The notes under the pieces: model-generated
Database searches by the model: none
Told to the model about the DNA's origin: nothing
The model's input: the letters and a program-made list of their open reading frames with translations, nothing else
Position numbers and translations under genes: made by a program
Shown: piece by piece, positions 5,240-23,485 of the stretch
Layout: every line of letters starts with the position of its first letter
Position numbering within the stretch: position 1 is the stretch's first letter
NCBI GenBank assembly: GCA_937139365.1
Contig: CAKZPT010000041.1
Coordinates: 1-64,000 of the forward strand
Source: an uncultured bacterium
Lineage (GTDB): Bacteria; Verrucomicrobiota; Kiritimatiellia; PWTM01
DNA length: 64,000 nucleotides
Direction of reading: 5' to 3'

Positions 5240-6288
5240 GGAGCCCTCCGGCGCGCAGTGAGGCGTTCGATCCGGGCGCGTCGCCGGACGCGGGCTGGGC
5301 GCGGCTCGGCGCGATCGCCGGCGAGCCAGCCCATCAGGCGAGGAGCGAAGTAGGTGACGACGGCCGAGGCACCGGCACGGTGGAACGCGGCCAGGGTCTC
5401 GAGCGCCGCCTCGCGCAGGTCAACGGCACCGGCGGCGGCGGCGTGGCAGAGCATCGCGTACTCGCCGGAAACCTGATAGGCCAGCACGGGAACGGCGACG
5501 GCGTCCCGCGCCTCGCGAACCAGGTCGAGGCACGGCAGGCCGGGTTTCACCAGCACGGCATCTGCGCCCTCGTCCACATCGCGGCGCAGCGCGCGCAGGG
5601 CAAGCCGGCGCGAAGGTGGAGGCAGTTGATAGGCCCGGCGGTCGCCGAAGGCGGGGGCGGACCTGGCCGCTTCGCGGAAAGGGCCATACAGGCAGGATGC
5701 GAGCTTGGCGGCGTAGCTCAGGATCGCCGTCGTCGAGCGGCGGACGGATTTGAGCGCCGCGCGGATGGCGGCGACGCGGTTGTCCATCATGTCCGACGGC
5801 GCGACCACATGGGCGCCGGCCTCGGCATAGGCCGCCGCGATCTGGGCCAGTCGCGCGATGGAGGCTTCGTTGTCCAGGCTGCCGTCCGGCCGCAGGATTC
5901 CGCAGTGGCCATGGGAGGTGTAGGCGCACAGGCACACGTCGGCAATCAGCAGGAGATCGGGATAGGCGGTGCGCAGCAGGCGCAGGGCGCGGGGCACGGG
6001 GGCGGCGGGGTCGTCCGCGCGCGAACCGCGTTCGTCGCGGCCCTCGCCGATGACGCCGAACAGCAACACCGCACGCAGCCCGGCGGCCACGGCCGGGTCG
6101 AGCACCTCGCGGAGACGATCCACTCCCCAGCGGCACTGGCCGGGCATCGCCGCGATCGGCTCGCGGACGCGGCGGCCGTCGGCGACGAAAAGGGGCCAGA
6201 TGAGGCGGTCCGGCGAGGGCCCCCCATCGGCCTGCCAGAGCCGCAGCACGGGATGGCCGATGCCGGGATGGAGTTCAACCGGCGTCAT
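5236..6288 (-). CDS. hemB: Delta-aminolevulinic acid dehydratase
   Basis: ADVCLCAYTSHGHCG, SYAAKLASCLYGPFREA, VLVKPGLPCLDL, YQVSGEYAML. Overlaps hemL by 4 nt. Confidence 0.93.
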   Translation of the reverse strand: MTPVELHPGIGHPVLRLWQADGGPSPDRLIWPLFVADGRRVREPIAAMPGQCRWGVDRLREVLDPAVAAGLRAVLLFGVIGEGRDERGSRADDPAAPVPRALRLLRTAYPDLLLIADVCLCAYTSHGHCGILRPDGSLDNEASIARLAQIAAAYAEAGAHVVAPSDMMDNRVAAIRAALKSVRRSTTAILSYAAKLASCLYGPFREAARSAPAFGDRRAYQLPPPSRRLALRALRRDVDEGADAVLVKPGLPCLDLVREARDAVAVPVLAYQVSGEYAMLCHAAAAGAVDLREAALETLAAFHRAGASAVVTYFAPRLMGWLAGDRAEPRPARVRRRARIERLTARRRAP

Positions 6289-7648
6289 CGAGGAGCTCTC
6301 CTTTCATTCCGGCGGCGTCGAGGGCGGCGAGCGTGGCCGGTCCGATCGCCAGCCAGCGTCGTCGCGCGCCGCGTTCGGCGGGGTAGTGGCGGAGAAACGA
6401 CGCGACGGTGCTGGGGCTGGTGAACAGCGCGCCGGCAAACCCGGACGGCAACGGTCCGGGGCAATGATCCAAGGTCTCGTACAACACGACGGGCACCAGC
6501 TCGACGCCGCACGGCGCCAACGCGCGGCGGCGCTCGTCGGCCGGCGCACGATCGGAACAAGGGTAGAAGACGCGGGCGATCCCGCCGGGCCAGCCGGCCG
6601 CCAGGCCGGCTACGCCGCGCATGTCGTGCACGACGTGGTCGGGCGCAAGGCCCAGACGCTCCATCGCGTCGGCCGTGGCCGGCCCGACGGCGAGCAGGCG
6701 GCGACCCGTGAGCGCCCGCACATCGCGCCAGTGGACAAGCGCTTCCACGAACGCGGCGGCGGCAAAGGCGGAGGCGAACAGGACGGCATCGCAGGCCGCC
6801 AGGCCGCTTTCCAGCGCGGCCACCCGTTCGGCCAGCGGCCGCGGGCGGCGCCGGATCATCGGCCAGGTGGCGGTCTCGCCGAGCCCGGCCAACCGATCGG
6901 GCCGCGTGCCGAGGATCAGCAGCGTGCGGGGTCCGATGCGGCCCGGCTCGGCGGCAGGAGGAACATCGCCGCGTTCGTCGAGCAGTTTCTGCCGAAAGTC
7001 GAGAGGCCGCAATGCGGCAAACCACTGGTCGTCCGAAGACCGCGCAACCACCGCGAGGTGGCCTTGCAGGGGTGCGGCCGCATCGAGCAGATACGAGTGG
7101 ATGCGTTCAGCGAGCCCGAGGCGGATCAGCGCGCAGGCCGCGACGACGATCGCGTCGTAGTCGCCCCGGTCGAGGGCCGCCAGCCACTGTTCGATGTTGC
7201 CGCGGAGGGGGACCGTTTCGGCGTTCCGAATAACCCGGCGGACGGCCGCATAGCGCCGGGGAGTACTCGAGCCCACCCGCCGGACAGCGGCGAGGTCCGG
7301 CACACCTTCGCGGAGGACGAAGGCGTCACGAAGATCGAGGTTCGGCAGGAACGCGGCCACCGCCAGTTCGGGCCGCAGACGGCGGGGAAGGTCCTTGGCC
7401 GAGTGGACGGCCAGGTCGCAGCCGTCGGCCAACAGGAGGCCGTCGAGGTCGCGGGTGAAAAAATCGTCCGGTACGGAGGGATCGGCCAGGGCCGTCACGC
7501 GGTCGCGATCACCCGGCGTCTCGGCCCAGATGAACTCGAAAGCCACCTGCGGGCCCAAGGCCGTCCGAAACGCGGCGACGGCCTCGGCGACCTGCGCGCG
7601 GGACAGGGGGCTGGGCCGAGCGGCGATCCTCAGGGGGCGGCCGCCCAT
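6275..7648 (-). CDS. Fused short HemC (hydroxymethylbilane synthase-like) and HemD (uroporphyrinogen-III synthase)
   Basis: LRIAARPSPLSRAQ, DLAVHSAKDLP, PLRGNIEQWLAALDRGDYDAIVVAA (HemC), continuing in frame to HemD-like AVLFASAFAAAAFVEA, LLAVGPATADAMERLGL, ALFTSPSTVASFLRHYP. No HemC domain-3 CxxPxG-type motif. Confidence 0.8.
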   Translation of the reverse strand: MGGRPLRIAARPSPLSRAQVAEAVAAFRTALGPQVAFEFIWAETPGDRDRVTALADPSVPDDFFTRDLDGLLLADGCDLAVHSAKDLPRRLRPELAVAAFLPNLDLRDAFVLREGVPDLAAVRRVGSSTPRRYAAVRRVIRNAETVPLRGNIEQWLAALDRGDYDAIVVAACALIRLGLAERIHSYLLDAAAPLQGHLAVVARSSDDQWFAALRPLDFRQKLLDERGDVPPAAEPGRIGPRTLLILGTRPDRLAGLGETATWPMIRRRPRPLAERVAALESGLAACDAVLFASAFAAAAFVEALVHWRDVRALTGRRLLAVGPATADAMERLGLAPDHVVHDMRGVAGLAAGWPGGIARVFYPCSDRAPADERRRALAPCGVELVPVVLYETLDHCPGPLPSGFAGALFTSPSTVASFLRHYPAERGARRRWLAIGPATLAALDAAGMKGELLDDAG

Positions 7649-8598
7649 GTGCGCGCTCCCTCGGCAACGAGGCGGGCCGCGATATCCGCACGCCGACGGC
7701 GGTCCTCGAAGTTGACCTTTGCCCGGGCCTCCACCTCGCCCAGCGAGACATAGCGCAGGTCCTTCAGTTCGCGCACATCCGTCGCGCAATCCGGTGGCAC
7801 GCCGAGGTACACGATCACCAGCGGCCGGCGCGCCGCAGCGAGGTGCCGGGCATCGAGGACCGGATGGGGGGGCCGCGGTCGCGCAGATGATCCCGCCGGC
7901 CCCCTCCAGCAGCGAGGCGAGCGTGTCCAGACCGCCCGCGAATCCGCCCACGAGGGCGGCGACCCGCAACGCGTTCTCGGGGCACCGGCCGGCGACCCGG
8001 ACCGCTTCGACGCCGCGCCCGGCCAGCCTCCGCGTCACCGACACCGCCAGCGATCCGGAACTGACCACGGCCACCGGCCAGCCCGCCGGCATATCGCTCA
8101 GCAGCTCCCGCACCGCCAAGGTCGCCAGCGAAATCATGGACCGGTCAATCCCGCTTTCCCGCCGCGCGCGACGGGCCAATTCGAGGACGTCCTGAAAGAC
8201 GCGATCCAAGGCCGCATCGTCCGCACCGCCCAGTTCGCGGAACCGGCGGTAGGATTCTCGGACCTGGCCAAGGATCTCGAGCTCGCCCAACACCCGGCTT
8301 TCGAGGCCCGCGGCGATGCGGGCCAGCCGTTCGAAGGCCTCCGCGCCGCGCCATTCCTGTCGGATGGCGTGCGGTTCCACCACGCCCGGCCGCCCCAGAC
8401 CATACCATTCGAGGCGCTGATACGTATCCAGGACAAGGCCCCGGCCGGCCGACGCCCCCATAGCGCAGCGACCCGCTCCGCCCGGCCGGCAGGTTCGTCC
8501 AAACGGAGGTCAAGGCCGGTCAGGCCGATGAAGCGACGCCGAGGCTCGACCGTCGCCGTGGCGGGCTTCAACGCGGCGGTTGGGGACTTCGAGGGCAT
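7630..8598 (-). pseudogene. hemA: Glutamyl-tRNA reductase-like protein, two frameshifts (about 8432 and 7866-7872) and no catalytic Cys
   Basis: RIAAGLESRVLGELEILGQVRESYRRF (GluTR hallmark), VFQDVLELARRARRES, tail LVIVYLGVPPDCATDVRELKDLRYVSLGEVEARAKVNFEDRRRRAD in another frame. N-terminal segment RRRFIGLTGLDLRL in a third frame. Confidence 0.72.
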
Positions 8599-9524: not shown

Positions 9525-11150
9525 TCACCCCTCCGGCAATCCAAATGCGTCCAAACCTTGGAACGCCAGCCGCACCGGATTTCCAAACATTGGAACCACG
9601 GCGACCGGCCACGACGAGACCGGCGGATACCGGCAAGGCGTGTCGAGCAGCAAGATCGCCAGCGCCGTTGCGCGAACCGAGGCGACGCCGCGGCTGTCGG
9701 ACCAGACCCCGCCCGCGTCGCGCCGGCTCAACACCGAGGCCGCCAGGGCGCCATACCATTTCATCCACGACGGTCCGCCCTCGTTGAACCGGCACGCGGT
9801 GGCCAGCAGCAGTGCCTCACCACCCGCGGACTCCCCGCCGGTTCGCGGCCACGCCGGCGACATCGAATCCAACGCCTTCAGGCCCCGCAGCGCGCGCGTG
9901 CCGGCGTCATCGCCGGCCATCTGTAGCGTCAAGACGGCGCCGGCGATCTGCGACCAACGCAATGGGGAAACGCCGCCGGCCGACGGATAATACAGCGACC
10001 CGCTGGCGGGGTTCAGCGATCGGTCCATTGCATCCGCCGCACGGGCAATGGCGGCGTGGATGGCGGGCTCGTCCGCCCCGGCTGCCAGCGCCAACCGCAG
10101 TCCCCAGGTCATCCAGGCGGTGATCACGGGATCGGCCGAGGACGAGGCCCCCCACCCGCCGTTGGAGATCTGGTCGGAAAGCGCCTGCCGGACCGTCAAG
10201 TCCATCGCCGCGCGGACAGCGGGCAGACGGGTGGCGGCGGAGGCATCGGCCATCGCATGCAGCCGCAAGGCGGAGGCGCGTAGGTCGGAGGGACGGCCGG
10301 TGGTGCCGGTCAGAAACGCAAGGGCCCCCCGCACCACGGCGGCGTGCGGTCCACTCCGATGGGTGTCGCCACGCCCCAGCAACGCCAACAACGCCAGGCT
10401 GGTCAGGGCCTGCGGGTCGCTGCCCTCCTCGCGCCAGGCGCCGTCGGTGGATTGTCGCCCGGCCAGCCATCGTGCGGCGCGTGCGGCGGCCTCGTCGGCC
10501 TGCCGGGCCACAACTCCGCCGGCGGCCAGGTACGCGGCCCGCGCAGTGGCGGTGCGCCGTTCGGTCAGAGGATGGGGCCCCGTCAACGCCACATCGCCGC
10601 CGGCGCGGGAAGCGGACACAGCGGCGTCCTCCGGATCCATCCAAACGGCCACGGGGTCCAAGGACTCGCCGGGCCGTGTGGCGGCCGCCGATGCCGGCGG
10701 GGCACGCACCTCGACCGGCGGGGCGGGCAGCTCGCCGGGGCGTCCTTCCAACGCCGTTCGCTCGGCCGGCCGCTCCAGCGCGATCTCCACCCCATCGGCC
10801 TCGCCGCCGTCGTCCCTCCGCGGGGGGGACGGAAAGATCACCCATCGGATCAGAAACACCAGCAACGCGGCATGGGCGACGAGCGCGACCGCGGGGCCCC
10901 AGATGTGCTCGCTCAGCGGCCGGCGCCCCGCCAGGGGCCGCGAACCGGGCGCCACCACCTGCTCGCTGCGGGAACGTCTCACCGCCCGCTCGATCGTCGA
11001 ATCCCAGCGGGCGGCCGACGCGAACCTTCGGGCCGCCTCGGGCGAGGCGCGCAACTCCGCCTCGAGCCGCGCGAGCCCCTCGGCGTCGAGGGCGTCGTTC
11101 AAGTACGCCTCGATCAGTCCGTCGAGCGGATCCGGAGGCCTTACGGTCAT
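9525..11150 (-). CDS. Membrane protein: anti-sigma/FecR-like N-terminus, TM helix, terpene-cyclase/prenyltransferase-like alpha/alpha-toroid domain
   Basis: LIEAYLNDALDAEGLARLEAELRASPEAARRF N-terminus; TM ALVAHAALLVFLIRWVIF; repeats ARWLAGRQSTDGAWREE, QISNGGWGASSSADPVITAWMTWGL. ATGA overlap with the sigma gene. Confidence 0.78.
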   Translation of the reverse strand: MTVRPPDPLDGLIEAYLNDALDAEGLARLEAELRASPEAARRFASAARWDSTIERAVRRSRSEQVVAPGSRPLAGRRPLSEHIWGPAVALVAHAALLVFLIRWVIFPSPPRRDDGGEADGVEIALERPAERTALEGRPGELPAPPVEVRAPPASAAATRPGESLDPVAVWMDPEDAAVSASRAGGDVALTGPHPLTERRTATARAAYLAAGGVVARQADEAAARAARWLAGRQSTDGAWREEGSDPQALTSLALLALLGRGDTHRSGPHAAVVRGALAFLTGTTGRPSDLRASALRLHAMADASAATRLPAVRAAMDLTVRQALSDQISNGGWGASSSADPVITAWMTWGLRLALAAGADEPAIHAAIARAADAMDRSLNPASGSLYYPSAGGVSPLRWSQIAGAVLTLQMAGDDAGTRALRGLKALDSMSPAWPRTGGESAGGEALLLATACRFNEGGPSWMKWYGALAASVLSRRDAGGVWSDSRGVASVRATALAILLLDTPCRYPPVSSWPVAVVPMFGNPVRLAFQGLDAFGLPEG

Positions 11151-11680
11151 GCCCCTGCCTCCGCCCATCGGCGGTGGACGCACTCGCGCAGCGCCTGGCG
11201 CAGACGAGACAGCGCCTTGTTCACCGCGTCGAGCGTGCTCGACAGACGCCGCGCGATCGCGTCCAGCGTCAGGTTCTCCTCGTAGCGCAACGCCAGCAGA
11301 CGGCGAGATTTTTCCGGCAACATCTCGATGCACGCCCGGAGCGCCGCCTCCTTTTCGGCCAGCTCCTCCGCCTCCCCTTCCGTGGCATCGAAAGCGGCCA
11401 ACACCGCCTCCATCGTCTCGGGCGCCAGTGGAACAGGCACGCGCTTCTGCCGGGCAAACGACTGCAACACCTTGTGGACAGCGATGCCGCGCGCCCACGC
11501 ACCGAACGAGCGCGCCTCGTCGAAGTCGTCGAACTTCCGCCAGAGGGTCAGCGCCACCTCTTGCAGGATGTCTTCGCGGGCATGGCGATCCCGAACCATC
11601 GAGCCGACGACGGCGGCGATCTCGTCCTGATGGCGCAGAAAGTGCGCCAGAAACCGTTCGTGCCGTTCCGATTCCGTCAC
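11147..11680 (-). CDS. ECF RNA polymerase sigma factor (PVC-type)
   Basis: GTG start VTESERHERFLAHFLRHQDEIAAVVGSMVRDRHAREDILQEVALTLWRKFDDFDEARSFGAWARGIA; region 4 LPEKSRRLLALRYEENLTLDAIARRL. Confidence 0.9.
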   Translation of the reverse strand: MTESERHERFLAHFLRHQDEIAAVVGSMVRDRHAREDILQEVALTLWRKFDDFDEARSFGAWARGIAVHKVLQSFARQKRVPVPLAPETMEAVLAAFDATEGEAEELAEKEAALRACIEMLPEKSRRLLALRYEENLTLDAIARRLSSTLDAVNKALSRLRQALRECVHRRWAEAGA

Positions 11681-11933
11681 GCTTCCTCTTCCGGGCGGCC
11701 GGGCCGGTTGGACATCTGGCGACCCCGGCCGGAAAAGCATAGCCGCGCGCCACCGAGCTTCCAAGGGCGACCGTGAGTCGGCCACGCGTCCGACGGGCCT
11801 GCCGCCTGCGTCCGCCATCCCTCGACCTCGCGGGGCGCGCCGGCCCCCGCTGCCGCCGGCCGCTTGCGAAAGGCCGCGCGGGATGGGACATTGGGGCGGC
11901 CGGCGCCGCCCTACCGGCGGCGGAGGCGCGACC

Positions 11934-12983
11934 ATGAACGACACCGCCCGCCCATCCGTGGCTCGCAAAGGCCCGCCGTTATCGGTCCTGTTGTCGATTT
12001 CCCTCCTCGCGGCGTCGGCCGCGGTGGCGCTGACTCGCGGGGCGCGCGCAACGGACACGGAGGTGATCGTCGAGCGCATCCCGCCCGGGACGGCGACGCC
12101 GGACATCAACCTCGGCCTCGTCGGCGACGCGGCGACCGCCGCGGAACCGAGAATCGGCCGGCGATACCTCGCCCGAATGGTCGAGGCGTCGCGCACCAGC
12201 CCCGATGCCGTTGCACGAATCGGCGGGCGCGTGACGTTCGTCGCCGGCGCCAGGCCGGGCGAGACGCGCGTGGTCGAGGTGACGGCGGTCCGGGCGACCG
12301 TCGCCGAGGCAGTAGCGGTGGGGCCCCCGCAGGCTGCGCCCTCCGATGCGGTCCCGGCCGCCGCGCAAACGTACACGGGGGCTGTCGAGGGCGTCGGGAC
12401 GCGGGGGGACGGCCGGGTGACCGTGGAGGGCCTGCCCGTCTACGTCCCCGGCGCGGCGAAAGGTGAACGCATTGTCTTCGAGATCGTCCGCCGGTCCGAC
12501 CGGTATGGGACCGGCCGTCTGATCGCGAAACTGCCGACGGAGCCGGCGGACGGGCGACCGGACGTCGGCGCGGACGGGCTGGTCACGGGAGTGGTGGAGG
12601 GCATCGGTTCGCGCGGCGACGGCCGGGTTATCGTGGACGGCCTGCCGGTGTACGTCCCCGGGACGGCGGTCGGCGATCGCATCGTGTTTGCGGTCGAGCG
12701 CCGGACCGACCGGTACGGCACTGGCCGTCTGGTGGAGAAACTGTCGGCGGGCGGTGGGCCGCCGGTCGAGCTGAAGGTCGGCGACATCCTCGAGGTGACG
12801 ATTACCGAGCGCTCCCGCCGCAACCCCGAACGGGAGGGGGTGGCGCGGATCGGCGGCCGAGCGCTGATTGTGCCAGGGGTGGCCAGCGGGCAGACCGTGC
12901 GGGTGCGCATCAGCGAGGTCCGCGAGCGGGTCGCGTTCGGGGAAGTGGCGCCGGCCAGTCCGCCGGCCGAGGCCTCGCCGTAG
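11934..12983 (+). CDS. Exported or membrane-anchored protein with four tandem TRAM-like domains
   Basis: N-terminal hydrophobic segment LSVLLSISLLAASAAVALT; TRAM-like units such as YTGAVEGVGTRGDGRVTVEGLPVYVPGAAKGERIVFEIVRRSDRYGTGRLI and VTGVVEGIGSRGDGRVIVDGLPVYVPGTAVGDRIVFAVERRTDRYGTGRLV. Confidence 0.82.
   Translation: MNDTARPSVARKGPPLSVLLSISLLAASAAVALTRGARATDTEVIVERIPPGTATPDINLGLVGDAATAAEPRIGRRYLARMVEASRTSPDAVARIGGRVTFVAGARPGETRVVEVTAVRATVAEAVAVGPPQAAPSDAVPAAAQTYTGAVEGVGTRGDGRVTVEGLPVYVPGAAKGERIVFEIVRRSDRYGTGRLIAKLPTEPADGRPDVGADGLVTGVVEGIGSRGDGRVIVDGLPVYVPGTAVGDRIVFAVERRTDRYGTGRLVEKLSAGGGPPVELKVGDILEVTITERSRRNPEREGVARIGGRALIVPGVASGQTVRVRISEVRERVAFGEVAPASPPAEASP
12385..12755 (+). repeat. 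Tandem intragenic duplication of a TRAM-encoding unit (about 12385-12540 and 12590-12750)
   Basis: Two adjacent segments share most nucleotides, e.g. gacggccgggt..tcgtgga.ggcctgcc.gt.tacgtccccgg and gaccgaccggta.gg.ac.ggccgtctg. Confidence 0.7.
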
Positions 12984-12992
12984 GAAGGGGCG

Positions 12993-13757
12993 GTGGCGGT
13001 CGTCCGGTCCACCGAGACGAGTCTGACGCGTCGCCGGCGCGCGATGCAGACGGAGGCGCGCTGGCTGGCGCGGCTGGCGCCGGTGGAGCTTGGGGCGGCC
13101 GTACTGCTGGTGGCCGTCGGCGCCTGGGCGGCGGCGAGGCAGCGGCCCGCCGCGGGCTGGTGGATCGGGGCCGCCGCGGTCGGCCTGCTCGGCGGGGGCC
13201 ACCTCTGGAAGGCCCGGCAAAACCGGGATGAAGGACGGGCGCTGCGCGCCGGCGCCAGCGGCGAGGAGCGGGTGGCCGAGGCTCTGGCGAGGCATTTCGA
13301 CGACCGCCATGTCCTATTCAATGACGTCACCTTGCGCAGCGGGCTGCGCTCGGCGCAGGTGGATCACCTCGTGGTGGGGCCAAGCGGCGTGTGGGTGGTC
13401 GAGACGAAGAACTGGGGCGGACGCATCGAGGGCGAGGCCGACGCCGCCGTATGGACGCAGATTCGCCCCGCCGGCGCACCGCGGCGGCTGGACAATCCCG
13501 TCCGCCAGAATCGCCGTCACGTCGCCGTCGTGCGGGGCTTTCTGGAGGTGGCCGGACTGGGCGCCGCGGAGGTGCGGGCGGTCACGGTCTTTGCCGGGCG
13601 CGGGACGGAGCTGGCCATCCGCGGCGCGCGGTCGGATGAGCCGGTGCTGACGCTCGACGAGTTTCCTGCCCGCCTCACCGCAGTCGTCGCCAATGCGCGG
13701 GAGCTGCCGACGGCGACGGTTGAGCGGCTGGTTGCACGGATCTCGGAGGCGGCGTAG
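12993..13757 (+). CDS. NERD (nuclease-related) domain protein with two N-terminal TM helices
   Basis: ASGEERVAEALARHFDDRHVLFNDVTLRSGLRSAQVDHLVVGPSGVWVVETKNWGGRIEGEA; preceded by hydrophobic VELGAAVLLVAVGAWAA and WWIGAAAVGLLGGGH. Confidence 0.88.
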   Translation: MAVVRSTETSLTRRRRAMQTEARWLARLAPVELGAAVLLVAVGAWAAARQRPAAGWWIGAAAVGLLGGGHLWKARQNRDEGRALRAGASGEERVAEALARHFDDRHVLFNDVTLRSGLRSAQVDHLVVGPSGVWVVETKNWGGRIEGEADAAVWTQIRPAGAPRRLDNPVRQNRRHVAVVRGFLEVAGLGAAEVRAVTVFAGRGTELAIRGARSDEPVLTLDEFPARLTAVVANARELPTATVERLVARISEAA

Positions 13758-13765
13758 GGGGGCGG

Positions 13766-13993
13766 ATGCCAGGAGGGTGGTCCAGCGGCAGCACGGGTCC
13801 GGCGCGGCGAACGTTGCGCCGCGCGGTGCTGACGGTCAACGCAACGGGCTTTGCGGTGTACCTGTTCTGGCTGGCCTCCCGGGGCCGACGTCTTTTTTTC
13901 GATCCCGAGGGTGCGATCCAATTGCTGCCGTGCCTGGCGTTCCTTTTCGTGTTCGTGTGCCTGGCGAGCGATGGCGGGGGCGGCGGAGGGTGA
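13766..13993 (+). CDS. Small membrane protein
   Basis: 75 aa, two hydrophobic stretches (VLTVNATGFAVYLFWLAS; LLPCLAFLFVFVCLAS); tightly packed between NERD and comEC. Confidence 0.55.
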   Translation: MPGGWSSGSTGPARRTLRRAVLTVNATGFAVYLFWLASRGRRLFFDPEGAIQLLPCLAFLFVFVCLASDGGGGGG

Positions 13994-14201
13994 GGGTATG
14001 GAGCGCGGGGCAGTCGGTCTGGCGAGGATTCTGGCGGTGGCGATGGCGATCGGCGCGCTCGTGATCGTAGTGCGCCCCGACTATCGCGCGGCGCTGGCGT
14101 GCCTGTGGCGCGGCCGGCCGGCGGAATCGCCCATCTGGCAATCCAATTCGCGATACTATCCCGGCATCGACCAGCCGGCGGAAGGGGCACATGGCGACTA
14201 G
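13971..14201 (+). CDS. Small single-TM protein
   Basis: GAVGLARILAVAMAIGALVIVV TM segment; overlaps the comEC start at 14191. Confidence 0.5.
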   Translation: MAGAAEGEGMERGAVGLARILAVAMAIGALVIVVRPDYRAALACLWRGRPAESPIWQSNSRYYPGIDQPAEGAHGD

Positions 14202-17200
14202 CTCGGCCATTCTCCTGATCTGCTACGCGTTCGTCGCCGGCATCGGTTTTTCGATGGCGTGGGACCTCGGCGCCGTGGTCGCGGCGGGGTGTGCAGCCGG
14301 CGGCGCGCTCGCGCTCGCGGTGGCGGCGTGGATGCGACGGCGCGGGATGCGAGCGGCGGCACGGCAGGCGGTAGAGACCGCCGCCGCGATCGGACTGGGG
14401 CTCGGGTCGGGCATGGCGCGTCACATCGCGGCCGTGGCGAGACCCGACGCGCACTGGGCGGAGGTGGCGGTCGATGAAACCGTGGCGCGGCTGGAACGAA
14501 CGCGGACCGGTTTCGACACGGGCCGCATTCGCCTGGAGCTGCTGGAGCCGCCAGCGTCGGACCTTGCGATCCGGCTGGTCGGGGAGGTGGATGCCCGCCT
14601 GCCCGCGGGCGAGGGCGGGTCGGTGGCGGCCGACGAGGGGGGGCGGTGGCGGTTCCGGATGGCGACGTTGACGGTGACCACGGACGCGATCCGGGTGCGG
14701 TCGGACGATCCGGTCGGTCGTGAATGGTGGCCGGCGACGCCGCTGACGCGCCTGATCGGCGTGGTGCTGTCCGGGGGCCGCGGTCCTGCGCGGCTCCGGG
14801 TTTGGCGGGTGGCCGGCCAGATCGGCGCCTTTGCGCGGGCGGAGCGGCGCCAACCGCCGCTGCGGGTGCTGGGCCACGTCAGCGGTGACCCGATCGTCTA
14901 TGACTACAAGACCGTCCTGCCGGTGACCCCTCACTACATCGAATGGCCGGCCGGCGGGCCGTTCCTGCGCGCCGAAGGCGGCCTGATCCACGTGACGATC
15001 CGGCCGGAGGCGCCGGGCTATGCGGAGATGTCCGGGACGGCGGCGTATGGACGGCTAATCGAAGTCACTGCCCCACTGCAGGCGCCCGCCGGCGCGCGCA
15101 ACCCCGGCGGCTTCGACTATCGCCGGTACCTTCGAAACAGCGGGGTGCAGGCGCTAATGTACCCCGACGTCCGCGAAGGCGGCGCGGGCGCGCGGCTGGT
15201 GGAGGCGGGGCGGCCCGGCGTGGCCCCACACCGTCACGCATGGGTGGCGTTCTCGTTGAACCTGCGTGACCGGCTGACGCGCGTGATCAAAGCGACGCTG
15301 CCGTGGCCGCAGTCGGCTTTCGTCGGCGGCGTGACGCTCGGGCTGCGGTACGGGCTGCAGAACGTGCTGTGCCTTCGCCGCACGGCGGATGCCGCCGGCG
15401 GGCCGGGGATTGGCTGTCCGGAGTTCATCGCCGACGAGTTCCGCGCCGCGGGAATCAGTCACGTGCTGGCCGTGTCGGGGTTGCACGTGACGATCATCAC
15501 GGTGATGTTCGTGGGGCTCTTCTCGCTCGCCCGCCTGCCGCGGCAGGTGTACGCACCGCTGATCCTCGCGGCGCTGGTGGTCTTCGCGATCGTCACCGGT
15601 GCGCGTCCGTCGACGCTGCGGGCCGTGATCATGAACGGCCTGATGCTGACGACGTGGGCCTATCTGCGGACCGGTCTGCGGGCCTCGGTGCTCTTCGGCG
15701 CGCCGGTGGCGGCGGCGTTGATCCTGCTCCACAACCCGCTGGTCGCCACCGATCCGTCGTTCACGCTGTCCTTCGGCGCGATCCTTTCGCTGGGGCTGCT
15801 GACGGAGCCGGTGCTGGAGCTGTTGCAGGGGCTGCGGGGTTGGCGGCTGATCGGCGCCGTCCTGGCGGCCGCCGGCTGGGCGGCCGCCACGGCGCTGCGC
15901 TGGCCGCTTGCGGCCACGCCGCAGTTCTGGGGGCCGATGGGCGCGATGACGGCCGCGCTGCTGGCGGCCGGCCGGGCGCTCGACCGGCGGGGCCCGGCGC
16001 TGCCGCGGTGGGTCGCCGCCGATCGCGCGCCCAAGGGCGTGTTGACCTTCGTCGCCGCGCAGGGGGCGATCCAGGTCGGGATGATGTTGCCCCTGTCGGC
16101 CTACTACTTCTGCCGGTGGCCTTTGGCCGGCGCGTGGGCGAACCTGGCGGCCATCCCGTTGATCGGCGTGATCGTGCAGCTGGGGGCGATCGGCGGGCTG
16201 CTCGGCCTGATACCGGTGGTCGGCCCCTATCTAGCACTGCTGTTCGGCGCCGCCAACTGGTTCTTTTCGACGCTGTTTCTGTTGCTTGGCCACGCGGCGG
16301 CCTGGAGTTTTCCGTATCCCTTCGTACGGCGTCCTGGCGAGGCCTTCCTCGCGGCGTGGTACGGCCTGTGCGCGCTCTGGATCTGGCGGCGACCGCTACG
16401 CGCCGCGCTCGAGGCGGCGGCCGCGCGGATCGGCGCGGGGCCGGCCGCGGCGCGCGCATGGATGGCCGTTGTGGCGGCGCTGATGGCAGGGGCGGCCGCC
16501 GTCCGCCTGGCGCCGGAACGACCGGGCGGCCTTCGGGTCACCTGGATCGCCGTCGACTACGGCGGGGCAACGCTGCTCGAGACGCCGTCGGGGCGCCGCG
16601 TGCTGGTGGACGCCGCCTTCGCCGACGCGGACCACTCCCGCCGCAACCAGGCGGTGCGGACGCTCCTGCCGTTTCTGGCGTCGCGGCGGATCCGGGCGGT
16701 GGACGCCCTGATCCTCACCTCGCTGCGGCCGGAACGGATCGGGGGCGCCGGCTCGGTGCTCGAATCCCTGTGGGTCCGCGAGGTGGCGCTGCCCGCGGCG
16801 TGGCCGTCGTGGGCGGAGGGAACGACCCCGGACGAGGTGGCGGCGGTCCTCGGATTGCCGCTCGAATCGCCGTTGGCGGCGGCGATTCACGACGCGGTCG
16901 TCGGCTCGGCCGGCCCATTCCCGCGGCCGTCGCTCGTACGGGAACTCGCCCGTCGCCGCCCGACGCCGCTCAACCGCTGGGCGGGATGGGACGTGCGGGT
17001 GCGGCGGATCGCGGCGGGGGATGTACTGTACCAGGAGACCGGGCCGGACGGGGAGTTTCGGATCGAAGTGGCGCATCCGCCGGCCGAAACGGATCTCCGA
17101 GCAGGGCCGGACGCAGTTGCGGTGGCGTTGCGGGTGGTCTATGGCGACACGGCGCTGCTTTTGACCGGGGATCTGGGGCTCGCCGAGGCGGCGGCGATGG

Positions 17201-17586
17201 CCGGGCGGCTGGGGGCGCAGGGACGCGGTGCGCAGATCGTCACCGCGCCTCACCACGGCGCCCCGCCGGGGCTGCCGGCGGAGCGGGCTGCGGCCGAGGC
17301 GGTGCTCGACCGCGAGATCGGGGCGTTGCTGCGCGCGACCGGCGCGCGGACCGTGATCGCGGAGTTCGGCCGCTCGGCGGGCGTGCCCGGCGGCTCGCCC
17401 CGTTCGCGCGAGGCGGCGGCCGCGTGGATGCGCATGGCGGTGACCAGCGGCTCGGCGGACGTGGAGTGGCTTTCGACGGAAGAGGGATCGATCGCAGCCG
17501 AATCCGACGGCCGCACATGGAGGGGGCCGCAGCAGTCTGGCGCCGGCGGGGACGAGGCGGACGAGGCGCCGGCCTTCGACGGGTGA
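14191..17586 (+). CDS. comEC: ComEC/Rec2 family competence protein with a degenerate C-terminal metallo-beta-lactamase-like domain
   Basis: RNPGGFDYRRYLRNSGVQA, AAGISHVLAVSGLHVTIITVMFVG, VTGARPSTLRAVIMNGL; C-terminal TWIAVDYGGATLLETPSGRRVLVDAAF...LLLTGDLGLAEA...APHHGAPPG. Confidence 0.92.
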   Translation: MATSSAILLICYAFVAGIGFSMAWDLGAVVAAGCAAGGALALAVAAWMRRRGMRAAARQAVETAAAIGLGLGSGMARHIAAVARPDAHWAEVAVDETVARLERTRTGFDTGRIRLELLEPPASDLAIRLVGEVDARLPAGEGGSVAADEGGRWRFRMATLTVTTDAIRVRSDDPVGREWWPATPLTRLIGVVLSGGRGPARLRVWRVAGQIGAFARAERRQPPLRVLGHVSGDPIVYDYKTVLPVTPHYIEWPAGGPFLRAEGGLIHVTIRPEAPGYAEMSGTAAYGRLIEVTAPLQAPAGARNPGGFDYRRYLRNSGVQALMYPDVREGGAGARLVEAGRPGVAPHRHAWVAFSLNLRDRLTRVIKATLPWPQSAFVGGVTLGLRYGLQNVLCLRRTADAAGGPGIGCPEFIADEFRAAGISHVLAVSGLHVTIITVMFVGLFSLARLPRQVYAPLILAALVVFAIVTGARPSTLRAVIMNGLMLTTWAYLRTGLRASVLFGAPVAAALILLHNPLVATDPSFTLSFGAILSLGLLTEPVLELLQGLRGWRLIGAVLAAAGWAAATALRWPLAATPQFWGPMGAMTAALLAAGRALDRRGPALPRWVAADRAPKGVLTFVAAQGAIQVGMMLPLSAYYFCRWPLAGAWANLAAIPLIGVIVQLGAIGGLLGLIPVVGPYLALLFGAANWFFSTLFLLLGHAAAWSFPYPFVRRPGEAFLAAWYGLCALWIWRRPLRAALEAAAARIGAGPAAARAWMAVVAALMAGAAAVRLAPERPGGLRVTWIAVDYGGATLLETPSGRRVLVDAAFADADHSRRNQAVRTLLPFLASRRIRAVDALILTSLRPERIGGAGSVLESLWVREVALPAAWPSWAEGTTPDEVAAVLGLPLESPLAAAIHDAVVGSAGPFPRPSLVRELARRRPTPLNRWAGWDVRVRRIAAGDVLYQETGPDGEFRIEVAHPPAETDLRAGPDAVAVALRVVYGDTALLLTGDLGLAEAAAMAGRLGAQGRGAQIVTAPHHGAPPGLPAERAAAEAVLDREIGALLRATGARTVIAEFGRSAGVPGGSPRSREAAAAWMRMAVTSGSADVEWLSTEEGSIAAESDGRTWRGPQQSGAGGDEADEAPAFDG

Positions 17587-17599
17587 GCGGCGGAGTCGA

Positions 17600-17986
17600 T
17601 CACCCCCCGGCGCGGCCCAGCTTCTCGCCGATCGTGTGCAACAAGATCTTCGGATCCACCGGCTTTTGGAAGATGCCGTCCAGCCCAAGGTCGGCGTAGC
17701 TGGTGACCATGTTGAGCTGGTCGCCGGCGGAGCTGAGAAGGTAGATCGGCGCTCGGTTGCCGAGCAGGCGCAGCTCCTTGATCATGCCGGTGCCCGAGTC
17801 GACCTCCTCCATCATCAGGTCGAGCAGGACCAGGTCGGGCGGATGGGCCTTGTAGACCTTCACTCCCTCCTCGGCCGAGTGCGCCTCGACCATGAGGTAG
17901 CCGGCGGACTCCAGGATGACGCGGACGGTGTCGAGGTAGTCCTGGTCGTCGTCCACGTAGAGGATCACGAACTTGCCGTCCTTCAT
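17600..17986 (-). CDS. Single-domain response regulator (REC only)
   Basis: ILYVDDDQDYLDTVRVILESAGY...DLVLLDLMME...FQKPVDPKILL. Confidence 0.88.
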   Translation of the reverse strand: MKDGKFVILYVDDDQDYLDTVRVILESAGYLMVEAHSAEEGVKVYKAHPPDLVLLDLMMEEVDSGTGMIKELRLLGNRAPIYLLSSAGDQLNMVTSYADLGLDGIFQKPVDPKILLHTIGEKLGRAGG

Positions 17987-18495
17987 CGCGCGGTCTCCAT
18001 CGGGTTGGGGTCTGCTGCGGCCGCGTCGTTCGTTTCCGCGCCGGCCGCAATCCGCCGCAGCCAAGAGTCGAGAAATTCCACGGCGGCGTCAAGATGGCGG
18101 CGAGCCTCGTCCGACAGACGCTCGCCGAACTCCGAGAACCGCCGGCCGCGGATCGCGAGGGCGTAGCCCCGGGGTTCGGCGCGGAAGATGTCGCGGGCCA
18201 GGGCCAGTACGGCGCCGGGGCCGAGGGTATGCGTGCCCATCCCCTCGACGGGGCGGGCCTCGATCGGCCGCCAGTCGAAGGGGGCGGGGCCCTCGACGGC
18301 CGCATCGGCGAAGACGACGGCCGCGTGCCGCGCCGCGTCGGCGGCGTGCTCGACGTTGAGCTGGTAGTCCACGTCCACGTCCACGCCGGGGATGTGCCGG
18401 GCCTCGATGGCGGCGGCGCAGGCCGGGCCCAGACCGTCGTCCATCCGGCCGGGGTTTCCGTAGCCGATCACCAGAATGCGCCGGGCCGGTTCCAT
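17983..18495 (-). CDS. Hydrogenase maturation protease (HoxW/HycI-like)
   Basis: RILVIGYGNPGRMDDGLGPACAAAIEA...YQLNVEHAADAARHAAVVFADA. Confidence 0.85.
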   Translation of the reverse strand: MEPARRILVIGYGNPGRMDDGLGPACAAAIEARHIPGVDVDVDYQLNVEHAADAARHAAVVFADAAVEGPAPFDWRPIEARPVEGMGTHTLGPGAVLALARDIFRAEPRGYALAIRGRRFSEFGERLSDEARRHLDAAVEFLDSWLRRIAAGAETNDAAAADPNPMETAR

Positions 18496-18506
18496 GCGCG
18501 GTTCCG

Positions 18507-19955
18507 TCACGCTCCGCTGTCGCGGACCCGGCGCGCCAGCGTGGCGCCATTGGGGCCGACGAGTTCCACGACGAGCGGCATCTGGCCGAGCGCGTGCGTC
18601 GCGCAGGACAGGCAGGGGTCGTAGGCGCGGATGGCAACCTCGATGCGGTTGAGAAGGCCCTCGCTGATCTGGACGCCGTCCAGGTACCTGCGCGCGACGT
18701 CCTCCACGGCCCGGTTCATCGGAGTGTTGTTGTTCGTCGTCGAGACGATCAGGTTGCAGCGGACGACCTGGTCGCGGTCGTTGACGACGTAGTGGTGGAA
18801 CAGAGTGCCCCGCGGGGCCTCGATCAGGCCGACGGCCTCGTTGCGCCGCTCGCCGCGGACGACGAGGTCGGTCCCCTGCAGGTCGGCGTCGTGCAACAAC
18901 TGTTCGATCACCTCGACCGAGTGGAGCAGCTCGATCATCCGGGCCCAGTGGTACGTCATCGTCATGTTGTTGGGCCGGCCGCCGGTCAGCCGGAAAAACT
19001 CCTTCCGGGCGGCCTCGGCCTTCGGGCTGGGGATCGAGTCGCAGAGGTTCACGCGCGCCAGCGGGCCGACGCGGTACCAGCCACGCTCGGGGCCCAGCGA
19101 GCGGATGAAGGGGAACTTCATGTAGGACCACGGCTGCACGTCCTCGGCGATGTAGTCGAGGTAGTTCTGATAGTCGACGCCGTCGAAGATGGTTCCCCCC
19201 TTCGCGTCCACGGCGCGCAGCACGCCGTGGTAGAGGTCCATCTCGCCGTTCGGCCGCACGAGCGAGAGGTGGTTGGAGTCGAACGCGCCGAACGGGGCCA
19301 GCTCCTCCAGGTGCTCCATCGTGTAGTCGCGGGCGACGCGGACGGCGCCCTCGGCCCAGTCGAGCATCTGGGGAAGGTCCTTCAGGAAGGCGTCGCGCTC
19401 CTCGACGGGCAGGTTGCGGTTGACGCCGCCGGGCACCGCACCGGTCCCGTGGATTTTCTTGCCGGCCGTCGCGCGGATGATCTCCTGGCCGTACTTCCGG
19501 AGCATCACCCCCTGGACGGCCAGGTCGGGATACTTGCGGGCGACCCCGACGATGTTGCGTACCGCCGGATCGGCGTCGAAGCCGAACAGGAAGTCGGGCG
19601 AGCACAGGTGGAAGAAGTGCAGCGCGTGCGACTGGAGCATCTGCCCGTAGTGCATCAGCCGGCGGATCTTCTCCGCCGTGGGGGTCAGGTTCTCGCCGCC
19701 GACGATGCGGTCCATCGCCTTGGCCGCGGCCAGGTGGTGGCTGACGGGACAGATCCCGCAGAGGCGCTGGACGAGCACGGGCACCTCCCAGAAGGGGCGC
19801 CCCTGAATGAAGCGTTCGAAGCCGCGGAACTCGACGATGTGCAACCGGGCCTGGCGGACGCGGTTCTGCTCGTCGAGCTGGATGGTCACCTTACCGTGGC
19901 CCTCGACACGGGTCACGGGCTCGATCACGACGGTGCGGGTGGCGCTGGGGTTCAT
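18507..19955 (-). CDS. hoxH: [NiFe]-hydrogenase large subunit (HoxH-type, probable group 3d)
   Basis: EPVTRVEGHGKV, RLCGICPVSHHLAAAKAMD, C-terminal RAYDPCLSCATHALGQ. Confidence 0.94.
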   Translation of the reverse strand: MNPSATRTVVIEPVTRVEGHGKVTIQLDEQNRVRQARLHIVEFRGFERFIQGRPFWEVPVLVQRLCGICPVSHHLAAAKAMDRIVGGENLTPTAEKIRRLMHYGQMLQSHALHFFHLCSPDFLFGFDADPAVRNIVGVARKYPDLAVQGVMLRKYGQEIIRATAGKKIHGTGAVPGGVNRNLPVEERDAFLKDLPQMLDWAEGAVRVARDYTMEHLEELAPFGAFDSNHLSLVRPNGEMDLYHGVLRAVDAKGGTIFDGVDYQNYLDYIAEDVQPWSYMKFPFIRSLGPERGWYRVGPLARVNLCDSIPSPKAEAARKEFFRLTGGRPNNMTMTYHWARMIELLHSVEVIEQLLHDADLQGTDLVVRGERRNEAVGLIEAPRGTLFHHYVVNDRDQVVRCNLIVSTTNNNTPMNRAVEDVARRYLDGVQISEGLLNRIEVAIRAYDPCLSCATHALGQMPLVVELVGPNGATLARRVRDSGA

Positions 19956-19968
19956 GGCGGTCTCCGAT

Positions 19969-20517
19969 TCAGTCGTACTTCAGGACCTCGTAGGGCAGGT
20001 CCACGGGCCGGTGGTTCAACAGGGCGACGAGCGTCTGCCAGATCGCGTCCGCCGGCGGGGGACAGCCCTGAATGTGGTAGTCGATCTTCACCACCTCGTG
20101 GCACGGATAGACGCGGTCGAGCACCAGCGGCAGCGCGGGGTCGTTGGGGTAGACGCGGCGCGGGTTGTGGACGGTGGGGCCGTTGAGGTAGGCCTCGTCG
20201 AGGCACTCCTTCAGGGGGATGTTGTTGCGCATCGCGGGGATGCCGCCGCAGATGGCGCATTCCCCGACGGAGACGAGCACGTCGCAATGCTTGCGGAACT
20301 CCTGCAGGACGCGGACGTTCTCCTCGTTGCAGCAGCCGCCCTCGACGAGCCCCACCGCGCAGCGACCGGTGAACTCCTTGAGGTCGTCGATGGGGGACTT
20401 GTCGAACTCGACCAGCTCGATCAACTGCAGGATGCGCTCGTCGATGTCGAGGATGGACATGTGGCAGCCGAAGCAGCCGGCGAGGGAACAGGTCGCGACG
20501 CGGGGTTTGTCGGGCAT
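19969..20517 (-). CDS. hoxY: [NiFe]-hydrogenase small subunit (HoxY)
   Basis: RVATCSLAGCFGCHMSILDIDERI, VEGGCCNEENV, GECAICGGIPAMRN, IQGCPPPADAIW. Confidence 0.93.
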   Translation of the reverse strand: MPDKPRVATCSLAGCFGCHMSILDIDERILQLIELVEFDKSPIDDLKEFTGRCAVGLVEGGCCNEENVRVLQEFRKHCDVLVSVGECAICGGIPAMRNNIPLKECLDEAYLNGPTVHNPRRVYPNDPALPLVLDRVYPCHEVVKIDYHIQGCPPPADAIWQTLVALLNHRPVDLPYEVLKYD

Positions 20518-20528
20518 GGCGGGCCTCC

Positions 20529-21248
20529 TCAAGTGGTGGGGGTGGGACGGCGGGACTCGATGTCGGAGCCGATCGGGCGCCGGTCGTAGAGACGCCGCCC
20601 GATGGGCGTCGCATAGCCCTGCCGCTTCTTCAGCAGGCAGCCGACGGGGCAGACCTCGACGGCGCGGTCTTCGGCGGCCGCGTTCGTCCCCGCCAGCTCC
20701 GTCTCGGCGTTGATCCACAGTTTCTTCCGCGCGCCCCGGCCGACGAACTGGAAGACGCCCTTACGGTCGAGGTCGCGCGAGGCGCGAACGCAGCGGGCGC
20801 ATAGGATACAGCGGTTACGGTCGATCAGGACGTCCGGATGGGAGGCGTCCACGTCGCGATCTGGGAACAGGTAGGGGAACCGGGGAGCGGTGATGCCAAA
20901 CCGGTACGCGAGGGCCTGCAGTTCGCAGTTGCCGCTCTTCTCGCAGAACATGCAGTAGTGGTTGCCCTCGACGAAGAGCATCTCGATCAGCCGGCGGCGG
21001 TGCTCGAGCAATTCGGGAGTGTTGTTTTCCACCACCATGCCCTTGGCGGCCGGCATGGTGCAGGCGGCCTGCGGGCGGCCGTTGACCTTGACGGTGCAGA
21101 CGCGGCAAGCGCCGAAGGGCACCAAATCCTTGTGGGCGCACAGGCGGGGGATGTAGATGCCGGCGTCGTCGGCGGCCTGCAGGATGGTCTGGCCGGGACG
21201 GGCCTCGATGGCGACGCCGTCGATCGTGAAAGACAACGTCTCGCTCAT
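20529..21248 (-). CDS. hoxU: Diaphorase/hydrogenase Fe-S subunit HoxU (NuoG-N-like)
   Basis: GACRVCTVKVNGRPQAAC, HYCMFCEKSGNCELQALAY, RCILCARCVRASRD. Confidence 0.92.
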   Translation of the reverse strand: MSETLSFTIDGVAIEARPGQTILQAADDAGIYIPRLCAHKDLVPFGACRVCTVKVNGRPQAACTMPAAKGMVVENNTPELLEHRRRLIEMLFVEGNHYCMFCEKSGNCELQALAYRFGITAPRFPYLFPDRDVDASHPDVLIDRNRCILCARCVRASRDLDRKGVFQFVGRGARKKLWINAETELAGTNAAAEDRAVEVCPVGCLLKKRQGYATPIGRRLYDRRPIGSDIESRRPTPTT

Positions 21249-21269
21249 GTCGCGGTTCCTTTCATCGGG

Positions 21270-23083
21270 TCAGGGCGCGTAGATCACCGACGGACGGCCG
21301 ACCAACCGTTCGGTGTCCGCCAGCGCGCGGCGGACGTCGAACGTCGGCAGGAATTCGCCCGCCGGCGGGCGGATACGGCCCTCCAATGCGGTCGGGAAGT
21401 TGCGGATCAGGGACAGCACCGGATTGGGCGAGGTCTGACCGAGGCCGCAGCGGCTGGTGAACTTCACGCACTCCGCCAGCCCGGTCAGGTAGGCCACGTC
21501 CGACGGCGCGCCGCGGCCGGCCAGGATCTCCGCGATCTTGCGCAGCATCAGCACGTTGCCCACGCGGCACGGCGTGCAGTAGCCGCAGCTTTCGTCTACG
21601 AAGAACTCCAGGTACCTGGCGACAACGTGGACGAGGTCGCGGCTGGTGTTGAAGACGACGATCGAGCCGCCGGTGGCCAGGTCGTCGTACTCCAGCCGGC
21701 GATGGAAGCTCTCCGGTCCTACCATCTGGCCCGACGGCCCCCCTACCTGCACGGCCTGGACGTCCTCCGCGCCGACGTCGCGCAGCAGGTCCGCCAGCGG
21801 GACGCCGAAGGGGTACTCGTACACACCCGGCGCCGCGCAGTCGCCGCTGACGCTGAAGAGCTTGGTGCCCGGACTGCCCTTGGAGCCGATCTCGGCGAAC
21901 CACCCGGGGCCGCGGTCGAGGATGCGGGCGACGCAGCAAAACGTCTCGACGTTGTTCACGCTGGTCGGGCAGCCGAGGTACCCCTTCTGCGCGGGGAACG
22001 GCGGGCGGTTCTTCGGATCGCCCCGCAGCCCCTCGCACGAGCTGATCAGCGACGTCTCCTCACCGCACACGTAGGCCCCCGCGCCCAGCTGGATGCGGAT
22101 GTCGAACTCGACACCGCGCTTGCCGCAGATGTCGCGACCCAGCAATCCCGCGTCGCGCCGGACCTGCAGAACGTGCTCTAGCAGAGGCCGCAGGTAGGCA
22201 TATTCGCCGCGCAGGTAGAGGATCCCCTCCCTCGCTCCGATCGCATACCCGGCGATCGCCATACCTTCGAACAACAGGTCCGCGTACTCCGTCAGGATAA
22301 CGCGATCCTTGAACGTCCCCGGCTCGCCCTCGTCCGCGTTGCAGATGACGAATTTGCGGTCGCCCTCAGCCTGCCGCGTGAACTCCCACTTCATGCCGGT
22401 CGGGAAGCCAGCGCCGCCGCGGCCGCGCAGACGGGCGGTCTTGATGTCCCGGATGACCTCCACCGGGCTCATTGCCAACGCCTTGCGCAGAGCGGCCCCC
22501 GGCGGGAGGTCCGCCAGGACCACCGGGCCCTTGCGCCGGACGTTGTTGTGAACCATCGAGCGGACCAGCGGATGCGCGTTGTGGCCGTCGCCCAGCCGGT
22601 GCACCAACTTGCGGGGATCGCCGCTGCGTCGCAGCTCCGCGACGATCTCGCGGGCCTTGTCCGTTGAAAGGTACGTCACCACGACGTCGTTGATCAGGGC
22701 CGCGGGCGCCTGGTCGGACATCCCGATGCACGGCGTCCACTCCAACGTGATCGCCCCGTCCGGAGTCGTCTCGCCCATTCGGATGCCCAGCTCGGCCTCG
22801 AACGCCCGCGCGACGGGCTCCATTCCCGCCATCTCGTCCACCGGATCGCTGCACAACCGGATCACGATCCGCCCTTTGGGCTGGGCCGTCAGAAAGCTGT
22901 AGAACGAAACCGTGCTTTGCACCTCGACGCGCGTCGTGTTCACCGCGGAGGCAATCACGTCCAGCGCCTCGCCCGACACGCACCCGAATCGTGCCTGCAC
23001 CGCCTGAACGATGTCCATCATCCGGGTCCGGTCGTTCTTGAACGCCGAACAGATCTGCCGAACCGTCTGTTCGAACTCGCTCA
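21270..23083 (-). CDS. hoxF: NuoE-NuoF (HoxE-HoxF) fusion diaphorase subunit
   Basis: N-terminal NuoE-like VQARFGCVSGEALDVIASAVNTTRVEVQSTVSFYSFL; NuoF-like LRGRGGAGFPTGMKWEF, CNADEGEPGTFKDR, YLRGEYAYL, ESCGYCTPCRVGN. Start approximate. Confidence 0.9.
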
Positions 23084-23485
23084 TGTCTGGGCCCTCATCC
23101 TGTGAGCCATCCGCCATCGGGCTTGTGCCCATCACACAAGTAACCTACGAAATGGCCGCCATACCGTCAAGCCTCATCCTATCGTCAGTTCGTATCTACA
23201 GAACTGGTTTGAAACTTATTTGACGTCGAATCATGAACAAAAAAATGACCCGGATTGCCCAAATATGTGAGTAGCGGAACATGATCTGCCATGCCTGAGT
23301 GCATATCCTGAACTTTGAGGATTTTGCATGTCAGGCGACCGGACAGGAGGTCGGAAGCGGCCCGGCTCCGCATGCGCTCGCACAATCTGTTCGGGGCCCG
23401 ACAACGGGCGGAACGTCTGCGCCCGCCCGACGCGGCGGGGTCACTGGGGAACGCGCGAGGCTGATTCGTTCCTGTCTTGGGGTCA

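Follow-up and report, generated by a model that had tools for sequence, protein, structure and literature searches.

What would a bacterium do with a second, divergent ComEC whose gene is packed together with those of a TRAM protein, a nuclease-related NERD protein, and two very small membrane proteins? The window analysed here is a stretch of 64,000 nucleotides that forms one end of a 91.7-kb contig, from a G+C-rich Kiritimatiellia genome of 2.82 Mb that is 97% complete. The nearest named relatives of its ComEC protein, hereafter ComEC2, are also Kiritimatiellia, recorded as Kiritimatiellae, Lentisphaerae, or Verrucomicrobia. A genome is generally assumed to have a single ComEC with a single task. 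A sequence-only reading of the window had described five tightly packed genes of the same strand, and had proposed that they might act on nucleic acid at the membrane, either as an accessory of competence or as a defence against incoming DNA. All five genes are present (Table 1). They lie head-to-tail in the order TRAM-NERD-SM1-SM2-ComEC2 with gaps of 60, 8, 4, and -11 bases, the last being the overlap between SM2 and the ComEC2 start that had already been noticed. The size of approximately 76 aa first given for SM2 had to be corrected to 67 aa, counted from its ATG.

Table 1. Genes of the ComEC2 locus in window coordinates, with the evidence behind each assignment
Gene product	Position	Strand	Evidence
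TRAM array protein, 349 aa	11934..12983	+	Pfam TRAM, NCBIfam PyTRAM, family alignment, charge bias
NERD nuclease-related protein, 237 aa	13044..13757	+	PF08378, invariant columns, AF2 model, fold matches, charge bias
SM1 (small membrane protein 1), 75 aa	13766..13993	+	Conservation across loci
SM2 (small membrane protein 2), 67 aa	13998..14201	+	Conservation; upstream of ComEC2 in several phyla
ComEC2, 1131 aa	14191..17586	+	PF03772, PF13567, AF2 model, fold match 9ic4, tree

Several other gene groups of the window were recognised. On the minus strand, a 727-aa frame (6275-8458) joins GlutR_N, porphobilinogen deaminase, and uroporphyrinogen-III synthase domains into a HemA-N/HemC/HemD fusion, which is followed by HemB (5236-6285). 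An ECF-type sigma factor and a large downstream protein (9525-11891 and 11147-11650, minus strand) are divergent from the ComEC2 operon, and the large protein displayed weak similarity to the C-terminal domain of squalene-hopene cyclase. An operon for a NAD-linked NiFe hydrogenase (17983-23135, minus strand) encodes Nuo51/24-like and Fer2_4 proteins, the small and large subunits, and a probable maturation protease. It is followed by a response regulator (17600-18064).

We looked for the TRAM, NERD, and ComEC proteins in 58 genomes and then scanned the matching regions for synteny. The five genes, in the same order and on one strand, were found in 14 relatives from several Kiritimatiellia families within this set. 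All five also occur in order at 20 of the 80 loci that came from a scan of named genomes; these two sets overlap in part, since a number of the named records come from genomes already in the first set. Altogether, this arrangement of the five proteins is kept in no fewer than 20 distinct loci or Kiritimatiellia species, at protein identities of about 27-66%. Conservation of the TRAM-NERD-ComEC adjacency in relatives had been named beforehand as a test of the module, and the order is indeed kept across many families.

The genes are also inherited together. Among 57 relatives, 16 encoded both ComEC2 and the NERD subfamily, two encoded ComEC2 only, none NERD only, and 39 neither (Fisher p 3e-12, a value that ignores shared ancestry). 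The corresponding counts for ComEC2 and TRAM were 16 with both, two with ComEC2 only, one with TRAM only, and 38 with neither. The two genomes with ComEC2 alone are incomplete assemblies (69-89% complete). Stronger evidence for co-inheritance than these p values comes from lineages in which the genes have parted. Thirteen genomes, from a clade with species of rumen and gut among its members, displayed the locus SM1 - cation efflux transporter - SM2 - ComEC2 with no adjoining TRAM or NERD (two members are cut or have no recognised SM1). The NERD subfamily was found elsewhere in the genome in 12 of these 13, mostly following a TRAM array, in the order TRAM-NERD-NERD. In G007 the NERD gene, and in G071 both TRAM and NERD, likewise lie elsewhere, unlinked from the ComEC2 locus. 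Since the rumen and gut clade, G007, and G071 look like separate cases, at least three separations of TRAM/NERD from ComEC2 are implied, as a provisional count. The conserved adjacency, together with a co-occurrence that lasts after separation, bears out the proposal that these genes form one module.

The domain content of ComEC2 places it within the ComEC family. Its competence transmembrane domain scored 121-126 bits against PF03772 (E 6e-35, curated cut-off 23). The OB fold (DUF4131) ahead of the channel scored 49.5 bits against PF13567 (E 5e-13) and had a profile match to the ComEC OB structure 9iew (E 1.7e-5). The complete layout consists of three N-terminal helices, an extra beta-rich region, the OB fold, the competence channel domain, and a C-terminal MBL fold, with the OB domain predicted by charge bias to lie outside, as expected. 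In the AF2 model (mean pLDDT 81.5, pTM 0.80), the C-terminal domain matches the solved MBL domain of ComEC, 9ic4 (Foldseek, TM 0.78, E 2e-11). The protein stayed under the NCBI equivalog cut-off for ComEC_Rec2 (TIGR00361), with 87 bits against 190. Across 32 homologues of the Kiritimatiellia branch (type A), the channel region is very strongly conserved, including HVLAVSGLHVT, TGARPSTLRAVIM, and many invariant aromatics. For this reason, transport has probably been retained.

Type-A ComEC2 has kept the MBL fold, and its metal motif is gone. Motif II of functional ComECs is H-x-D-x-D-H, with aspartates on which activity depends (PMC8579336, PMC12455585). This motif was absent from all 32 type-A sequences, in which the position that aligns to STHPDADHIGG of the solved domain reads T-S-P-x-P-E-R/H or similar. 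The ordinary ComEC of the window genome retains D-x-D-H.

This ordinary ComEC is encoded on another contig, and its Pfam score of 187 bits is above that of ComEC2. The genome also encodes DprA and several pilus-type ATPases. In a tree of 76 competence domains, 45 form the ComEC2 clade (support 100/100, branch length 1.92), and the ordinary ComECs that these genomes also encode fall outside it. Its members are Kiritimatiellia of types A and B, Riflebacteria, Hydrogenedentes, CSSED10-310, Mcinerneyibacteriota, and others, and an ordinary ComEC accompanies ComEC2 in most of the 19 genomes checked. The sequence-only reading had taken the window protein for the DNA uptake channel. Its membership in the ComEC family stands, but it is a second, divergent paralogue whose MBL motif has degenerated, and not the usual competence channel. 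Type B, a further Kiritimatiellia ComEC known from eight loci, is mostly 925-940 aa long and also lacks the MBL metal motif; an SM2-like protein lies upstream of it in seven of the eight.

The two small membrane proteins had no match in Pfam or NCBIfam. SM2 consists of one helix followed by P.YR...W.G..e.SpIW.SN..YYP, which includes an SNxYYP motif (17 loci). An SM2-like protein is found directly upstream of ComEC2 in nearly all loci checked, type B included, and is recognisable at this position in Riflebacteria, CSSED10-310, Mcinerneyibacteriota, and other bacteria. SM2 has therefore long accompanied the channel as a lineage-specific partner, an association read from gene context. SM1, found in most named loci of the Kiritimatiellia branch, is a probable two-helix hairpin with a conserved eGvlyLLPxxPFFFVY (17 aligned loci). 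In one clade, a cation diffusion facilitator gene (PF01545) is kept between SM1 and SM2 (six loci).

The surroundings of ComEC2 in other phyla provided insights into what TRAM and NERD might do. Riflebacteria, CSSED10-310, and their relatives have the gene order SM2 - ComEC2 - a ComEA-like one-helix HHH_3 protein - a one-helix free MBL protein, and the latter has an intact TH.H.DH-type motif. Directly downstream of ComEC2 in Mcinerneyibacteriota there is neither a helix-hairpin-helix nor an MBL gene. Searches for TRAM and NERD in the ComEC2-bearing Riflebacteria and CSSED10-310 genomes returned generic matches only, which assigns the two proteins to the Kiritimatiellia branch. A related NERD occurs by itself in one Hydrogenedentes genome. 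By analogy, we infer that TRAM and NERD would fill in Kiritimatiellia the receptor and nuclease places held elsewhere by HHH_3 and free MBL proteins. This parallel is our main argument that the two proteins serve the channel.

The TRAM protein matched Pfam TRAM with 74 bits (7.6e-21, gathering score 21) and NCBIfam PyTRAM in four stretches, and its sequence matches in the PDB were 1yez and 1yvc. It has one N-terminal membrane helix and, according to the family alignment, about four TRAM/OB-type domains, the number in homologues ranging from two to five. From the charge bias around the helix (+1.0 before and -1.3 after, 19 homologues), the array is predicted to lie outside the cytoplasmic membrane, and judging by its family it may bind nucleic acid. 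In canonical systems, the nucleic-acid receptor outside the inner membrane is ComEA. No HHH_3 protein (ComEA-type helix-hairpin-helix) was found in the window genome or locus at E 1e-3. The idea of TRAM as a strict substitute for ComEA is weakened by clear HHH_3 matches somewhere in the genome in 8 of 18 ComEC2-bearing relatives. A TRAM array of the same family also occurs in one genome in which the NERD subfamily and ComEC2 were undetected.

The NERD protein, whose ATG start is backed by homologues, scored 93 bits against PF08378 (2.2e-26, gathering score 22.1). Two N-terminal helices, arranged as a membrane hairpin, precede a PD-(D/E)XK-type domain in which E74, D107, E120, K122, and Q155 are invariant in 24 homologues. 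The retention of these residues agrees with its earlier description as nuclease-related. The AF2 model has a pLDDT of 95.5, and its fold matches to PD-(D/E)XK nucleases were weak (best E 8e-3); one of them is the small subunit of R.BspD6I, a heterodimeric enzyme. A sequence search of solved structures with NERD gave no match. Charge bias, a weak indicator, is +1.3 at both hairpin ends in the homologues and predicts that the domain lies on the cytoplasmic side.

In one lineage, NERD was duplicated after it had separated from the ComEC2 locus. Tandem NERD genes were found in 12 genomes (11 of the 13 with the separated locus and one further genome), and in each pair the upstream copy lacks the catalytic residues, reading WIDH...INTLNW where the live copy has QIDH...ESK, while the other is intact. 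Dead copies cluster in one clade and live copies in its sister (100/99 and 100/100). Among eight sequences sampled from each, mean identity was 72% for the dead and 66% for the live copy. Being as conserved as the live copy, the dead one is therefore maintained, with both under selection, which suggests an active/inactive heterodimer. In restriction-type enzymes, such heterodimers can limit cutting to one strand. The tandem lineage is one clade, and its 12 genomes represent one relocation event maintained over time.

We propose that the five genes specify a second import module dedicated to nucleic acid, built on a divergent ComEC2 and with nuclease and receptor as separate proteins, and we give this reading a probability of about 50%. 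Nucleic acid would first be bound outside the inner membrane by the membrane-anchored TRAM array. ComEC2, in which the fold and the channel residues are observed, would then use its OB fold and its catalytically dead MBL domain to guide a strand into the competence-domain channel. SM2, and in Kiritimatiellia also SM1, would be permanent small partners of this channel. The nuclease role of the canonical ComEC MBL domain would be taken over by the separate, membrane-anchored NERD, which has its catalytic residues intact and might cut entering nucleic acid at the cytoplasmic exit. The role of the MBL and OB domains in ComEC itself has been described (PMC8579336, PMC12455585). Counting against this proposal, NERD is predicted on the cytoplasmic side and the MBL nuclease lies outside, so that NERD, in contrast to the domain whose role it would take over, would encounter the strand once it has been transported. 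With NERD inside, import for digestion would fit, as would a single-stranded substrate, and a one-to-one replacement in dsDNA transformation fits less. A single-stranded substrate also agrees with the loss of the outside dsDNA-degrading activity, taken together with a receptor of OB type, not helix-hairpin-helix. With an ordinary ComEC and DprA already in the genome, we consider uptake for consumption or processing a little more probable than uptake for transformation.

The question then is whether the module serves transformation after all. ComEC2 might be a second dsDNA channel of ordinary natural transformation, active in different circumstances; TRAM would be the receptor, and NERD would degrade the strand that is not transported. 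The channel and OB domains of ComEC2 are conserved, the window genome has DprA and pilus ATPases, and the sister systems of Riflebacteria and others combine an intact MBL nuclease with a ComEA-like HhH protein, which is the classical parts list. However, an ordinary ComEC is already there, no DprA/ComF/RecA-type gene lies inside the module, and a cytoplasmic NERD would attack the incoming strand. We regard this explanation as unlikely, if still a serious contender.

The ComEC2 of Kiritimatiellia could also be a dedicated importer of single-stranded nucleic acid, of ssDNA or possibly RNA, an idea that we put forward as speculative and quite unlikely in this specific form. In such an importer, the external TRAM array would stand in for the dsDNA receptor, and the outside strand-degrading nuclease would have been given up, with no second strand to remove. 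NERD would cut at the inner face, where the active/dead pair of the tandem lineage would cut one strand only.

A NERD domain is no guarantee of a nuclease, because SmdA, a NERD membrane protein of S. aureus, acts in cell morphology; it lacks several conserved NERD residues, and its authors knew of no NERD activity in 2022 (PMC9040797). SmdA, a membrane morphology factor, is the sole bacterial NERD protein for which we found a dedicated functional study (PMC9040797). By this precedent, the locus might have a role in the envelope or in cell division without nucleic-acid transport, with an SmdA-like NERD, a TRAM array that binds RNA or another polymer, and a ComEC2 that transports something else. 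We find this decidedly improbable. Unlike SmdA, the NERD proteins studied here have E74, D107, E120, and K122 invariant (24 homologues). Furthermore, the partners here are a ComEC channel with an OB fold and an OB-type TRAM array, and SmdA is monocistronic.

The defence proposed earlier would have NERD destroy entering phage or conjugative-element DNA, with ComEC2 and TRAM as sensors or anchors. NERD domains do occur in defence proteins (PglW, MAD6, NERD+UvrD), here as weak domain-level matches, but PADLOC gave nothing specific above that level, and the neighbours are housekeeping genes of haem synthesis and hydrogenase, with no defence island. Inheritance looks vertical through the class, the phyletic pattern follows the channel, and the transport domain is strictly conserved. 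On the PADLOC result and the neighbouring genes, the module was rejected as a defence system, a role that we hold to be very unlikely. It is just as hard to credit that TRAM-NERD and SM1-SM2-ComEC2 are conserved but unconnected sub-operons, adjacent by happenstance in many species. The two halves do part in some lineages, which speaks for this reading, but once separated they still share genomes and elsewhere they are absent together.

Compared with ComEC/Rec2, the three-part fold and its order are the same, and the channel motifs HVLAVSGLHV and GARPSTLRAVIM are common to ComEC2 (PMC12455585, PMC8579336). ComEC2 differs as a separate long-branch clade, with 1131 aa and an extra N-terminal beta region in the window protein, by the constant small partners and the coexistence with an ordinary ComEC, and in the Kiritimatiellia branch by the missing metal motif. 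The ComEC and EndA of S. pneumoniae likewise combine an altered MBL site in the channel protein with a separate membrane nuclease. EndA is an unrelated nuclease on the outer face; NERD is of PD-(D/E)XK type and predicted inside. The substituted motif II of S. pneumoniae ComEC has been discussed (PMC8579336). Known NERD proteins (PF08378: SmdA, PglW, MAD6) have the domain in common with the window protein, and SmdA also the membrane anchoring; the two-helix hairpin, the intact catalytic residues, the linkage to a channel, and the active/dead tandem of one lineage set the present family apart. The TRAM fold is held in common, by Pfam and PDB sequence match, with archaeal TRAM RNA chaperones (PMC5572242), RumA, and MiaB, whereas here it forms a membrane-anchored tandem array of 2-5 TRAM domains with no enzyme.

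In the open-access literature, we found no description of ComEC with NERD or TRAM, of ComEC paralogues, or of competence in Kiritimatiellia, and the module is a real, conserved, and apparently undescribed variant of ComEC-based uptake. A second ComEC lineage that extends across several candidate phyla, has its own micro-protein partner, and leaves receptor and nuclease to separate genes would point to a DNA-uptake channel that has been repurposed. The ComEC2 module provides a list of parts ready for testing, and the tandem NERDs a natural pair of active nuclease and pseudo-nuclease. It also gives a substrate hypothesis for NERD, a widespread domain that is present in BREX and MAD defence proteins as well and whose activity had not been studied by 2022 (PMC9040797). 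A rearranged version of the locus (L102 / L175) displayed the order NERD-TRAM-NERD-SM1-SM2-ComEC2-TRAM, and the catalytic residues are intact in both of its NERD proteins.
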